Shown in pieces: positions 16,872 through 54,537 of a stretch of 64,000 nt of DNA (position 1 is the stretch's first letter; every line of letters starts with the position of its first letter). The notes below the pieces were generated by a model that made no database searches, was not told the origin of the DNA, and worked only from the letters and a program-made list of their open reading frames with translations. Position numbers and translations under genes: made by a program. This DNA comes from Ewingella americana (GTDB lineage: Bacteria; Pseudomonadota; Gammaproteobacteria; Enterobacterales; Enterobacteriaceae): contig NZ_RCZD01000002.1 of assembly GCF_006438725.1 (NCBI RefSeq), forward strand, positions 187,294 through 251,293, given 5' to 3'.

Positions 16872-16931
16872 CCGACACGATGGAGATGGCATTCCTCCGA
16901 AACCGCCCTTACCGGCTAATGATGTCTACGC
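16872..16931 (+). ncRNA. Fluoride riboswitch (crcB motif)
   Basis: The leader of crcB contains the hallmark pieces in order: GGAGATGGCATTCCTCC, then AAACCGCC, then GGCTAATGATGTCTACG. These match the conserved core of the fluoride-sensing aptamer. The downstream gene encodes a fluoride exporter, which confirms the reading. A following stem (16942-16949 with 16964-16971, including one G-U pair) may be part of the expression platform; no clear T run follows, so control of translation or a weak terminator are both possible. Confidence 0.93.
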
Positions 16932-17004
16932 AATCTCATTGAGAGGTTCGTAGCATCACGCCGGAACCTTTCTGAATCCTCACTCAATCTTACGAAAGGC
17001 TTTT

Positions 17005-19688: not shown

Positions 19689-19714
19689 ACCAGAGACCGT
19701 CAAAAAAATCCAAT

Positions 19715-19740
19715 AAAAAACCCGCATCAGCGGGTTTTTT
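19715..19740. terminator. Bidirectional terminator between MFS gene and cspE
   Basis: Six A, ACCCGC-type stem (CCCGC with GCGGG), ATCA loop, six T. It is symmetrical and serves the plus-strand efflux gene and the minus-strand cspE. Confidence 0.92.
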
Positions 19741-19756
19741 CAAAATTTGGCCAGCG

Positions 19757-19966
19757 TTAAATAGGTTTAACGTCAGCAGCCGATGGACCTTTAGCGCCCT
19801 GTGTGATTTCGAACTCAACACGTTGGCCTTCAGCGAGGGTTTTAAAACCGTTGCTGGCGATAGCAGAGAAATGAACGAAAACATCCTTGCTGCCATCTTC
19901 AGGGGTAATGAAACCAAAACCTTTAGATTCATTGAACCACTTAACGCTACCTGTAATCTTAGACAT
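19757..19966 (-). CDS. cspE: Cold-shock-family protein CspE
   Basis: The 69-residue OB-fold protein is nearly identical to E. coli CspE. It has the RNA-binding motifs KGFGFI (RNP1) and VFVHF (RNP2). It acts as an RNA chaperone and transcription antiterminator and is expressed at normal temperature. The start [12 protein letters not shown] is taken from family alignment. In E. coli cspE also lies next to crcB. Confidence 0.95.
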
Positions 19967-20132
19967 CAAACTTACCTTTACGTGAATGAACGACACAGAA
20001 CGTGTCAATCACAGTACAGCAACAGATTTGGCTTTTGTCCAGAATTCAGATTGCAATAAGCGATAAAGCTCTCACTCTTACAATTTGTACGATAATTCCT
20101 ACTGTCAAAATGCCTTCACAGACCATAAAACA

Positions 20133-22428: not shown

Positions 22429-22458
22429 AAAAAAACGTCCGGCCATGATGACCGGACG
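22429..22458 (-). terminator. Terminator after the S9 peptidase gene
   Basis: On the minus strand CGTCCGG pairs with CCGGACG across nine bases and is followed by eight T. It closes the transcript running from 25642. Confidence 0.9.
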
Positions 22459-29046: not shown

Positions 29047-29100
29047 ATAATACTGCAACCGGTTTCAGAAACCGGTTGCGGTTTTGTGATTGGCTTCATA
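29047..29100 (-). promoter_or_regulatory. bgl operon control region: palindromic operator and CRP-like site
   Basis: 29055-29079 is a perfect palindrome with 12-base arms around one base (GCAACCGGTTTC, A, GAAACCGGTTGC). It contains two AACCGGTT cores typical of LacI-family operators. On the minus strand a -10-like TATTAT (29047-29052) follows at once. A CRP-like site TGTGA-N6-TCATA lies at 29085-29100. No LacI-family gene is in the window, so the regulator is encoded elsewhere. Confidence 0.65.
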
Positions 29101-29236: not shown

Positions 29237-29416
29237 TCAGCCTTTAGTCACGGAGACAATGTCTTTGATCTGGCTAAAGTTGGAGTTGCCGTGATCGGTT
29301 TTGACTGTTGGGTAAACGCGTTCCCCTTTTTTCACAAAGCCAGTTACCACGTGGGTAGAACCGCTCTTAACAGTCAGAACATCACCAATACTGATTGAAC
29401 TTTCGACTTCGCTCAT
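29237..29416 (-). CDS. Small YodC-like protein
   Basis: The 59-residue protein is predicted to be a small beta-barrel: ISIGDVLTVKSGSTHVVTGF resembles the DUF2158/YodC pattern (GD, VxxKSG, MxVxG). AAGGA lies five bases before the ATG at 29416. Its function is unknown. It stands alone between the bgl operon and the arabinoside locus; the resemblance is from memory and weak. Confidence 0.6.
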   Translation of the reverse strand: MSEVESSISIGDVLTVKSGSTHVVTGFVKKGERVYPTVKTDHGNSNFSQIKDIVSVTKG

Positions 29417-29595
29417 AACAATCCTTAACACTTACAATCGCTTAACTTCAGGGTGTCCAGTTAATACCTATAAAGAGTAGGCCTTTATCCCACACATAAC
29501 CAGCGGCATCGCCCTGAGCGCCGCAATAGCTCACCCGATAGTCACTCGCCTAGGAAAATTCCTGAAGACTTCCCCCTAAGTCAAATTATGGAAAG
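29417..29595. other. Intergenic region, promoter of the YodC-like gene
   Basis: This stretch holds the upstream region of the minus-strand small gene. I see no reading frame or stable hairpin worth calling here. The plus-strand candidate small RNA begins downstream, with its promoter at 29602-29629. Confidence 0.4.
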
Positions 29596-29601
29596 TTGTA
29601 C

Positions 29602-29629
29602 TTGAACGTGTAATACCGACAGTTATTAT
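29602..29629 (+). promoter_or_regulatory. Promoter of candidate small RNA
   Basis: TTGAAC (29602-29607), 16 bases, TATTAT (29624-29629, 5/6 match). It faces the plus strand, opposite to the genes on both sides. The predicted start is near 29636. Confidence 0.5.
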
Positions 29630-29635
29630 AAGTGT

Positions 29636-29731
29636 GCAAGCACTTATCCCCCTATAGGTCATTGCATCTCATTGGACTATCCCCTCGTAAGGTATTACGA
29701 CATCCCGCCATCCTTGAGCGGGATTTTTTTT
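29636..29731 (+). ncRNA. Candidate orphan small RNA
   Basis: Between two minus-strand genes lies a plus-strand unit of about 96 bases. It has a sigma-70-like promoter and ends in a seven-base hairpin (ATCCCGC 29702-29708, GCGGGAT 29718-29724) with eight T. The middle holds two C-rich unpaired stretches (TATCCCCCTATAGG, ACTATCCCCTCG) that could pair with ribosome-binding sites. No open frame of useful length is present. I do not recognise the RNA. The 3' end overlaps nothing but lies 19 bases from the GH127 stop. Confidence 0.5.
29702..29731 (+). terminator. Plus-strand terminator
   Basis: ATCCCGC, nine-base loop, GCGGGAT overlapping a run of eight T. It cannot serve the GH127 gene, which is on the minus strand, and there is no annotated plus-strand gene upstream. 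Confidence 0.85.
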
Positions 29732-29749: not shown

Positions 29750-31725
29750 TCAACCTTCGTTAATCCACACGCGCATCTCCCCTTCCCCACGATTCGCCCA
29801 GCTGAAATAGGGAACAAAGGTCAGGGTTTGCGGCTGCAACTCAGTCGCAGTCGGATTGAAACTGTAGAGCGGCTGTTGGGCGGCCTGCGTGGAATTAACC
29901 CTCACCCCGCGGGTCTGCAACAGGATTTTTCCTTTGAACAGACCGCTGCCGGCAATCAACCTGAAGGATGCGTGTTCCGGCAGTTGCACATTGTGCAGTT
30001 CGCTACCGTTATCGGCCTGTTCGAGGCAATAGACCAGCGGTCCACGCTGAATCGCCACTTTTCCGGCCACATGACGCAGCAACGGATTGCCCTTGACCCG
30101 CGTTACCGGCATGGGCAGCGCCAGTTGCAAAACATCGCCGTTCTGCCAGTGACGCGTCAGACGCACGTAACCACGCTGTACATGACCGCGTAGCTCCTGC
30201 GGCTCACCGTTAACCAGCAGCTGTGGGCTGGCGCACCAATCTGGCAAACGTAGCGCCAGCGTGGCCTCCAGCGGCGCCGTGGTTTCCAGTTCAATATTCA
30301 CCGTGTCATGCCATGGGTAACCGCCACTCTGTTTGAGACGCAGGGTTTCGCCATCGACATCGACTTCCACGTCACTGCCGATATAGAGATTAATATCCAC
30401 CCCGTCATTGCGGCGGGTATAAATATAACTGCCGAGTGAGGCCAGCAGACGGCGATATTGGGCGGGCAGCAGGCGCAGCCGAACCAACGCTGGCGTACCG
30501 GTTTAACGTGGTCATAGATATGGTTGAACTGAATACTTTTCGGATGCACTTCCAGCGGATTGACGTAGAAGAAGTGCTTACCGTCAAGCGCCATACCGGC
30601 CAGCACGGTGTTATAGAGTGCACGCTCCATGACATCGCTGTAACGACTGTCGGCCTCCAGCTGCAACATGCGGTTGGCGAACATCATCAGGCCAATGGAT
30701 GCACAGGTTTCGGTGTAGGCGGTATCGTTCGGCAAGTCGTAATCACAGCTGAATGCCTCGCCGCTGCTTTGCGAACCGATGGAGCCGGTGATGTACATCT
30801 GGCGCTGGGTCATGTTTTCCCACAGCCTCTGACACACCTCTCGCTTTTCCTGATCCTGGCTGAGGCGCGCCAAATGTGCCACACCCGCGTAAAGGTAGAC
30901 GAAACGTACCGCATGGCCGATGGCGGTCTTCTGTAACGCAACCGGCAAATGCGCCTGGCTGTACGCCTTGTCTTTCACCATCCATGCCGGGCCGTGAATA
31001 TTCCAGTGTGAAGTGCGCCCGCGTTTTTCAAACTCAAGATCGTAAAAATGAGGCTGCGTACCGCGCTGTTCGACGAAATAACGGGTCAGTTCAAGATAAC
31101 GCGGCTCGCCAGTGGCCTCGTACAGCCGCATCAGCGCCAGCTCAATTTCCGGGTGACCGGGATAACCCTGAATCTGGCCCTTTTCCGGCCCGAATACCTG
31201 CGAGATGTGGTCAGCCAGTTTGCATACCACCTCCAGCAGACGGTTTTTCCCGGTGGCCTGCGCATAGGCTACCCCCGCCTCAATCAGGTGCCCGGCACAG
31301 TACAGTTCGTGGCATTCCGCCAAATTGCTCCAGCGCAACGCGGGCGCTTTGACGGTGAAATAAGTATTCAGGTAACCGTCAGGCTGCTGCACGGCAGCCA
31401 CCAGTTCAATCACCCGGTCCGCCGTCTCTTCCAGTGCGGCATCCGGGTTTTTCACCAACAGATAAGCGACGGCTTCCAGCCATTTCGCCACATCACTGTC
31501 CTGAAAAACCATACCGTAAAACTCACCATCACTCTGTCCGGCAGCGATACGGAAGTTTTCAATCGCATGGCTCGGTTCAGCCTCCGCCACCTGGTCATTG
31601 AGCGCCAGCCACTGATACGGCACCACCACCTCTTTAACCAGACGCTGATACTCGAGCCAAAACGCATCGGTTATCTGGACTTTATCCAGTGGGACCTCAA
31701 GGCAATCTATAGGATGAAAAGACAT
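29750..31725 (-). pseudogene. GH127 beta-L-arabinofuranosidase, frameshifted
   Basis: Two frames together encode a 658-residue GH127 enzyme. The upstream frame (31725 to about 30451) runs from MSFHPIDCLEV to GCACCPPNIA, the cysteine-rich zinc and nucleophile segment. The downstream frame continues RLLASLGSYIYTRR to the stop at 29750. Restoring one C (plus-strand G) at 30450/30451 joins them exactly. AGGAGG lies four bases before the ATG. The family removes beta-L-arabinofuranosyl residues. A true mutation or a read error in a G run are both possible. Confidence 0.9.
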
Positions 31726-31765
31726 GCAACCTCCTGAAATGGTGTCGTTAAACAATGTCGTAAAA

Positions 31766-33157
31766 TCAAATTTTGCTGGCCAGCTCGCCGGACATGCGGT
31801 TGAGCAGGCGGTTATCGAGCTTGCAGAAAGTAATGGTGATCGCCAGCAGCAGATGCAGTGCGGCAGGCAGCAGCGTTTCAAACAGCCGGATACCGGTCAG
31901 CGACGCTGACGTTTGATGGTCAACCCCGGCCTGATAGGAAACCAGAATAAACACCAGCGCGATGATCCCGGCGCTCGAGGCCCATGCCAGTTTGATGAAA
32001 AACAGATTGAAGGCGAAGTTCATGCCGGAAGAGCGGATGCCGTTTTTCCAGTGCCCGTAGTCGTCGGCGAACGCCATGATGGAAAAGTGCAGCGGCAGCG
32101 TGAATCCCAGGATCACGCAGTGCACAAAAATGATGCCCAGCCACAGCGATTGCCACTGCTCACCCACGGGCATAAACCACAGCAGCAGCGAGAACACCGC
32201 CAGTATCAGGTTAGTGAGCATATACAAACGTACCGTGTCGATAACTTTGGTCAGTTGATTGACAATCACCGCGCCAAGTATCGACGCCAGCGTCACCATG
32301 CCAAAAAACAGCGAGGCATAACCTGCGCCACCTTTGAGCACATAGGTGATGAAATACATGTAGCCGCCGCCACGTAGATTGAAGACGTTGATCAACAGGA
32401 AAGACATCAGCAGCACCAACAACAGCTGATCATTTTTCAGCATGCCGCGAATATGCTCGCGCACGCTGAACTGGCCGAGCATCGACAAAGGCAGACGTTC
32501 ACGTACGGTGAAAAAGCACCACAGGAACATCACAACGGCGACCGTGCATAACAGACCGACACCTTGCTGATAGCCGAGTGCCGCATCGCCGTGACCAAAA
32601 TATTCCACCAACCACGGCAGCCCCACCGAGACTAAAAAACCGGCTACGCCGCACAGCACAAAGCGCCACGCCTGGCAGGAGATCACTTCGCGGTGATCGG
32701 TGGTCATGGTGTTGATCAACGCGCAGTAAGGCACGTTGATCGCTGTGTAAGAGACAGAGAGCAAAAAGTAAGTGAAGAACGCGTAGGCAATTTTGGCGTC
32801 TCCGCTAAGACCCGGCACGGTGAAGGTCAGCAACCCGACCACGCCAATCGGCACGGCAATCCACAACTGCCAGGGACGAAAACGCCCCCAGCGGCTTTGC
32901 GTACGGTCCGCCAGAATTCCCATCAGCGGATCGGAGATCGCGTCGATAATGCGCAGGGAAATGAACAGCGTGCCGACAATCGCCGGGGTCAAACCGAAAA
33001 TATCGGTATAGAAAAAGGTCAGGAAATTGGCAATCAGGCAGGTAATAATGGTGCCGCCGGCATCACCGAGTCCGTAACCTATTTTCTCGCTGACCGTTAT
33101 TCGGCTACTTTTTTCTTTAATCCGCGCAGGGGACGTATCAATTGAAATTGTTGGCAT
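31766..33157 (-). CDS. GPH-family sugar:cation symporter
   Basis: The 463-residue protein has twelve membrane helices and the GPH signatures [12 protein letters not shown] near the start and [23 protein letters not shown] after helix 2 (a long motif split here by description only). It is related to MelB, GusB and YicJ transporters and uses Na+ or H+. It lies 40 bases upstream of the GH127 gene and presumably imports the arabinoside that enzyme splits. Two ATG codons (33160, 33157) follow GAGG; the second has better spacing. Confidence 0.9.
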
Positions 33158-37739: not shown

Positions 37740-37784
37740 ATGTCTCCCCACCGGCGCTCAAGAAGGCGGTATCGGGAGAGATAC

Positions 37785-37870
37785 CTGACTTCCCTACGCT
37801 GGCATAATCCAGATCAGGTAATACGGGTAAGATCTCAGCCCTTTCTTTTGCAAGAGGGGCACCCCGAGTC
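37785..37870 (-). ncRNA. TPP riboswitch (thi box)
   Basis: The minus strand carries the thi-box core in order: CTCGGGGTGCC, GGCTGAGAT, ACCCGTATTACCTGATC, then TGGATTATGCCAGCGTAGGG. It precedes thiM, so thiamine pyrophosphate turns the operon off. A short hairpin GGTATC/GATACC (37768-37785) lies between aptamer and start codon without a T run, which suggests control of translation start. Confidence 0.97.
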
Positions 37871-37950
37871 AACGAAAGCCATTATTGGTGGGCGCAGCAG
37901 GAAGATCAACCTACAATCATCCGAAGACAGTAACAACGGAGAACAATCCC

Positions 37951-54447: not shown

Positions 54448-54537
54448 GCAATTTAGAAGAATGATAAATAAATTATCGGACTACACTAAGAACCACCTCC
54501 TTGGCCGGCTCAATCTCCCTTGAGCTGGCTTTTCTTT
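54448..54537 (+). ncRNA. cyaR: Small RNA CyaR (RyeE)
   Basis: The conserved unpaired segment AGAACCACCTCCTT (54489-54502) and the following terminator hairpin with loop TCTCCC match E. coli CyaR, and it sits just downstream of yegQ as in E. coli. The 10-base stem (one G-U) is followed by TTTTCTTTT. The CCTCC segment pairs with ribosome sites of targets such as ompX, nadE and luxS, using Hfq. The 5' half differs from E. coli, as expected for its variable region. Confidence 0.9.

Follow-up and report, generated by a model that had tools for sequence, protein, structure and literature searches.

We consider it probable that a short intergenic stretch of the 5.35-Mb genome G000 is a stand-alone small RNA (sRNA) gene of the Ewingella genus, controlled by the Rcs system and probably acting by Hfq-dependent base pairing through an invariant core. 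The gene lies within what we call the window, that is, the whole 64-kb stretch of DNA that was analysed, and its features are collected in Table 1. The sequence, its conservation, the match to the operator and the lack of a closed coding frame are observed directly in the genomes. From these we infer the following course of events. Sigma-70 RNA polymerase would start near position 29636 from TTGAAC-N16-TATTAT. With the centre of an Rcs-type operator some 78 nt ahead of this start, the sRNA would answer to RcsB, joined by RcsA or a different partner in genomes that have one, and the level of the RNA should therefore shift under envelope stress. Activation is the expected direction of Rcs control, given a box positioned upstream of the -35 element. 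The transcript would end at a U-rich intrinsic terminator, and the sRNA would probably work with Hfq, pairing by its core CUCAUUGGACUAUCCCCU to mRNA leaders.

When an RNA arm of the Rcs envelope-stress system is named, it is usually the sRNA RprA; if the reading given here is correct, the genus has a second Rcs-controlled sRNA beside RprA. A second, unrelated and lineage-specific sRNA with an operator of the rcsA/flhDC type would show how enteric genera can add RNAs to the Rcs regulon, and the locus supplies a concrete and testable operator, seed and candidate target.

Table 1. Features of the putative sRNA locus in the window (4/4 denotes the four genomes that carry the sRNA)
Feature	Positions	Strand	Basis or remarks
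59-aa divergent gene, small orphan protein	29237-29416	-	no Pfam or NCBIfam family
Rcs-type operator (RcsAB box-like), TAGGAAAATTCCTGA	29551-29565	+	exact match to TAGGAWWWWTCCTRA
Second conserved promoter motif CCTAAGTCAAATT, core TAAGNNAAATT	29575-29587	+	4/4 genomes
Whole promoter, 16-base spacer	29602-29629	+
-35 element TTGAAC	29602-29607	+	TTGGCC in G002, TTGAAG in G001 and G005, at the same place
-10 element TATTAT	29624-29629	+	relatives carry TATTAT or TACTAT
Putative small RNA, ~96 nt	29636-29731	+	start (expected 29635-29637) inferred from the -10; conservation, fold z, no closed reading frame
First C-rich stretch, TATCCCCC	29645-29652	+
Invariant core CTCATTGGACTATCCCCT, proposed seed	29668-29685	+	identical in 4/4 genomes
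Second C-rich stretch, TATCCCCTC	29678-29686	+
Intrinsic terminator, 7-bp stem, eight T	29702-29731	+	shuffle test; stem invariant in 4/4 genomes; arms ATCCCGC (29702-29708) and GCGGGAT (29718-29724), 9-base loop, T run 29724-29731

Distribution of the small RNA

Searches at the DNA level and with a covariance model place the sRNA in four of the six genomes of the genus set (G000, the genome containing the window, and G001, G002 and G005). The remaining two are uninformative and are not counted as absences, because contig ends fall close to the locus: the pair of G003 contigs expected to flank it break off within the PTS gene and within the GntR gene, and in G004 the contig carrying the GntR gene starts at about the AraC gene. 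A covariance-model search, of the kind that the first-pass annotation had recommended, covered 392 genomes of the family and, under strict filters, returned the same four genomes alone, with none of the 386 outside the genus (ten candidates were scored per genome in the entries shown). A laxer search of 40 relatives, accepting E up to 10, gave some match in 28 of them, the best outside the four genomes reaching 26.5 bits as compared with 113–124 bits within the four. We take that match as chance, its alignment leaning largely on the terminator, and terminator-only matches in three other genomes were dropped on the same reading. Likewise, an exact scan with 18 specified letters of a species-genome collection, which may omit the window's own genome, found two stretches, both within the genus, and no match was seen in E. 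coli genomes, plasmids or viral contigs. Across the genomes searched, the candidate is a new and uncatalogued sRNA family, particular to the Ewingella genus.

An Rcs-type operator upstream of the promoter

The interval first proposed for this locus holds as that of the sRNA, and it stopped short of an Rcs-type operator just upstream. The pattern TAGGAWWWWTCCTRA has one exact match in the window, and six matches at up to two mismatches as against 1.12 expected. Each of the four genomes has a box upstream of the sRNA, which fits the pattern fully in three of them and with one mismatch in G005, and its centre keeps a near-fixed distance of 65–67 nt ahead of the -10 element. The form common to the four loci, TAGGA(A/T)4TC(C/T)TGA, may be compared with the RcsAB consensus TAAGAAT-ATTCTTA, a 7-7 inverted repeat in the excerpt of PMC4381331 on which we draw; the Rcs target classes listed in the same excerpt include flagellar motility and Rcs autoregulation.

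It is informative to ask where else such boxes lie. Throughout G000 the exact pattern occurs at three places: the sRNA, rcsA (identified by the NCBIfam RcsA model at 258 bits, cut-off 162) and a gene for a PAS-GGDEF protein, and flhDC of G000 carries an upstream box with one mismatch. The boxes of flhDC and of the PAS-GGDEF gene recur in all four genomes; part of PMC5829831 describes the E. coli flhDC box as bound by RcsB. The PAS-GGDEF box of G000 (locus L093, C34:271987) is exact and lies about 110 nt upstream of the gene, and exact boxes also stand in front of the like genes of G001, G002 and G005. Genome-wide, with palindromic sites scored on both strands, box matches exceed those of a backward control in each genome (18 versus 9 in G000, 15 versus 5 in G001, 16 versus 4 in G002 and 21 versus 6 in G005). 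We examined 16 box loci, of which two are this sRNA, four PAS-GGDEF genes, three flhDC, one rcsA and six others, the last being fliE/fliF (two), a ferritin-like/DksA-type pair (two), a lipid A acyltransferase and an efflux-like protein, with fliE and the efflux-like protein named by look. We know of none of these six as an Rcs target. The two fliE/fliF loci (L097 in G000 and L099 in G001) have a one-mismatch box between the fliF gene and the fliE-like gene.

Besides these six loci, two observations on RcsA count against the Rcs reading. At E of 1e-40 or better, RcsA-like genes number two each in G000, G002 and G003 and one in G004 (44% identical); at that threshold, which a more diverged RcsA would miss, none was found in G001 or G005, though both keep the box. 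The two RcsA-like proteins of G000 (L163 at C1:379039 and L168 at C35:248946) are 42% identical, and NCBIfam named the first alone. An exact box precedes rcsA in G000 only, the rcsA-like genes of G002 and G003 having no box closer than three mismatches within 400 nt. A PDB search with RcsA returned nothing.

Between the box and the -35 element lies a second motif with the core TAAGNNAAATT, again in all four genomes. Its longer form, CCTAAGTCAAATT, resembles the left half of TAAGACAAATCTTA, found ahead of rprA; a similar stretch precedes rcsA, exact in G000, with one mismatch in G002 and not in G003. These resemblances hint weakly that the motif might be a functional promoter element.

The box and the conserved DNA around it could also serve the divergent gene for a 59-aa protein, leaving the sRNA transcript unregulated or unrelated. 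That gene lies about 120–135 nt from the box and was found in three of the four genomes with the sRNA (G000, G001 and G002), its matches among 60 relatives numbering three, all of the genus. However, it was not found in G005, where the box, with its one mismatch, nonetheless keeps the same distance from the -10 element, and we regard this explanation as quite unlikely. With an Rcs-type operator upstream of the sRNA in four of four genomes, Rcs control of the sRNA itself is likely.

Neighbouring genes

From 25.8 to 33.2 kb of the window the main genes run on the minus strand, so that, as had been claimed, no other plus-strand gene is seen there for the terminator to serve. Of the neighbours originally named, the GH127 gene on the right is confirmed and converges on the sRNA in G000, and the YodC-like gene on the left finds no Pfam or NCBIfam support. 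The downstream neighbour differs among the genomes: G000 and G002 have the GH127 gene there, G001 and G005 a GntR gene that runs in the direction of the sRNA.

This arrangement raises the question of whether the element is a terminated leader, or attenuator, of the GntR-family gene, the two having once been adjacent in the genus in an arrangement still seen in E. americana. In G001 and G005 the element and that gene are indeed co-oriented, with the element directly upstream. In G000 and G002, however, the genes that follow face the other way and some 4.6 kb separate the element from the GntR gene, yet the RNA is still identical at 84–88 of 95 positions, and we consider a leader very unlikely. 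Because the neighbours change and no reading frame closes within the transcript, a stand-alone non-coding gene is favoured over both a leader and a small mRNA; the conservation of the sRNA is independent of the genes beside it.

Two further features of the neighbourhood deserve mention. The GH127 gene of G000 (29750-31881, minus strand) is split into two overlapping frames, which is a frameshift or an assembly error; in G002 the corresponding stretch is a single frame that includes the catalytic, middle and C-terminal domains. A long inverted repeat of 14 pairs with a loop of three, perhaps the operator of a regulator, lies at 29052-29082, ahead of the PTS EIIC gene.

Promoter, terminator and conservation of the transcript

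The first-pass annotation described a TTGAAC-N16-TATTAT promoter and a 7-base-stem terminator with eight T enclosing about 96 bases, and all of these elements were found where it placed them. The locus is an intergenic unit with its own promoter and its own intrinsic terminator. The two ends of the unit carry different weight. Promoter hexamers occur at the chance rate (10 sites versus 7.3 expected in 8 kb), and we judged the promoter of the sRNA by its place and its partial conservation, not by its score. Terminators of this grade (a perfect 7-bp stem with at least four G/C, a loop of 3–10 and at least seven T) number two on both strands of the 64-kb window, as against none in 100 dinucleotide shuffles. 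The other is at 22436-22458 on the minus strand. A separate hairpin scan admitted loops of 3–8 only, and the sRNA terminator, with its 9-base loop, is absent from that listing.

Comparison of the four genomes, two at a time, shows how unevenly the region has been retained. Over the six pairs the transcript is identical at 84–95 of 95 positions (all 95 between G001 and G005), and that of G000 matches the other three at 87–88. The Rcs-type box with its edges is identical at 14–18 of 18 positions, the spacer between box and -35 at 13–25 of 34, the stretch from -35 to -10 at 10–18 of 21–23 and that from -10 to the start at 7–12 of 12, and the DNA downstream retains 23–62 identities in 73–85 aligned columns. 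The DNA around the locus, most of it genes, is 78–84% identical to the window in G001, G002 and G005 (a 311-nt GntR piece of G003 reaches 89%). Given the 87–88 of 95 positions of the G000 transcript set against these surroundings, the candidate RNA is better conserved than the DNA in which it lies.

The initial proposal was of an orphan plus-strand sRNA and was staked on conservation of promoter and hairpin in relatives. That comparison bears it out: both neighbours change around a retained -10, transcript and terminator, and it is the -35 that is kept loosely (TTGAAC, TTGGCC, TTGAAG and TTGAAG in G000, G002, G001 and G005, respectively). A chance pairing of promoter and hairpin without any gene would fit the chance-level frequency of promoter matches, but such a terminator was not produced in 100 shuffles, and the transcript and box are conserved where their flanks are not; conservation already contradicts this explanation, and we consider it extremely improbable.

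Fold and coding potential

The 96-nt RNA folds more stably than its shuffles (z of -3.56; -2.81 for a longer slice). A five-helix fold, one helix of which has three pairs, is compatible with all of the sequences (100% of 80 cells). Because none of its 27 pairs shows a two-sided change among the three distinct sequences, covariation speaks neither for nor against this fold.

The remaining alternative, that the RNA encodes a very small protein or has a dual function, would draw on a TTG-started frame (LDYPLV..) that stays open through the RNA in each of the four genomes, but in those genomes the transcript contains no closed frame of at least eight codons, a Shine-Dalgarno match precedes none of the frames and the frames diverge past the terminator, which makes a coding role hardly credible.

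A candidate seed and its possible targets

Both C-rich loops of the RNA had been put forward as seeds. The proposal is half supported: the second is invariant over TATCCCCT in all four genomes, and the first is variable. The best seed candidate is the invariant core CUCAUUGGACUAUCCCCU, the first part of which is mostly unpaired in two of three predicted folds. The U tail is typical of Hfq-bound sRNAs, and the U-rich 3′ end predicted here fits an RNA that is probably a Hfq-dependent base-pairing sRNA.

Target prediction from the C-rich loops had also been advised at the outset. The long complement of the seed, at up to three mismatches, gave at least 25 forward and 29 reverse matches in G000, 32 and 17 in G001, 28 and 22 in G002 and 24 and 21 in G005; the backward controls gave at least 33 and 29, 32 and 33, 38 and 25, and 24 and 29, respectively, and there is thus no enrichment. 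A shorter pattern joining the seed complement to a start codon, AGGGGATA-N-ATG, occurred 22 times versus 4 for the reversed control in G000, 12 versus 3 in G001, 20 versus 6 in G002 and 6 versus 4 in G005, counts to be read with three cautions: the control differs in composition, AGGGG itself looks like a ribosome site, and the complement within the sRNA gene is among the matches. Among fifty of these short-seed loci, the ribosome sites of a GFO/IDH/MocA oxidoreductase and of a BCCT transporter match in both G000 and G002, with 8-nt pairing.

The best single target candidate found is flhDC. Its leader in G000 and G001 holds GTCCAATGAG, the exact complement of CUCAUUGGAC, an invariant part of the core; the first nine letters are kept in G002 and the first eight in G005, inside a conserved block. 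Among 677 sampled leaders flhDC ranks 16 with the core and 51 with the longer RNA; the other leaders tried rank 482 (rcsA), 647 (PAS-GGDEF) and 96 (the 59-aa gene) with the core. Of 2000 shuffled cores, 2.4% reach the flhDC pairing, and in 2000 dinucleotide-shuffled RNAs a four-way 8-mer occurred in 106 and a 10-mer in 49. Because the chance level is about 2–5% before allowing for the four leaders tried, we treat the pairing as suggestive and as a lead only. Duplex energies for flhDC were set aside, as the calculation allows unrealistic loops.

It is tempting to go further and to picture a genus-specific sRNA, unrelated to RprA and carrying an operator of the rcsA/flhDC type, that pairs with the flhDC leader and so completes a feed-forward loop born in one genus. 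If this were true, Rcs would govern flhDC at two levels, through transcription and through the RNA. We hold this extension of the model to be unlikely.

Comparison with known RNAs

The first reading could match the RNA to no known sRNA, and Rfam agrees: at the locus no family reaches its cut-off, at gathering or relaxed thresholds. The best sub-threshold alignment is to PrrF (RF00444), mainly over the promoter-like start and the terminator; at 27.2 bits it is far under the 90-bit cut-off, and we take it as chance. Titles and the opening lines of abstracts on Ewingella small RNAs or Ewingella americana RNA-seq describe no sRNA of the genus.

RprA is the obvious point of comparison. Like the putative sRNA, it is an intergenic RNA of about 100 nt with an Rcs-type box upstream and a terminator with a U tail. 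However, it is a separate gene in the same genome, G000's own RprA lying at C34:217527 (72.3 bits, cut-off 70), and the box of the sRNA is of the rcsA/flhDC type; the RprA model (RF00034) gives no match at the locus up to E of 10. RprA was chosen as an Rcs reporter in E. coli because a cps fusion is also RcsA-dependent, as stated in part of PMC2731931.

A second comparison is with the sRNAs that target flhDC. McaS and OxyS share with the Ewingella sRNA the leader that we propose as its target; they differ in that no Rfam family matches here and the target is a predicted one. ArcZ and OmrA/B are further sRNAs that target flhDC. According to an excerpt of PMC3634460, several sRNAs bind the E. 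coli flhDC leader, which makes it a hub; flhDC is repressed by RcsB there, and RprA is activated by Rcs.

Elsewhere in the window, Rfam has four matches, to a fluoride riboswitch (16873-16935), the cspA thermoregulator (19711-20072), a TPP riboswitch (37774-37876) and the CyaR sRNA (54449-54535).
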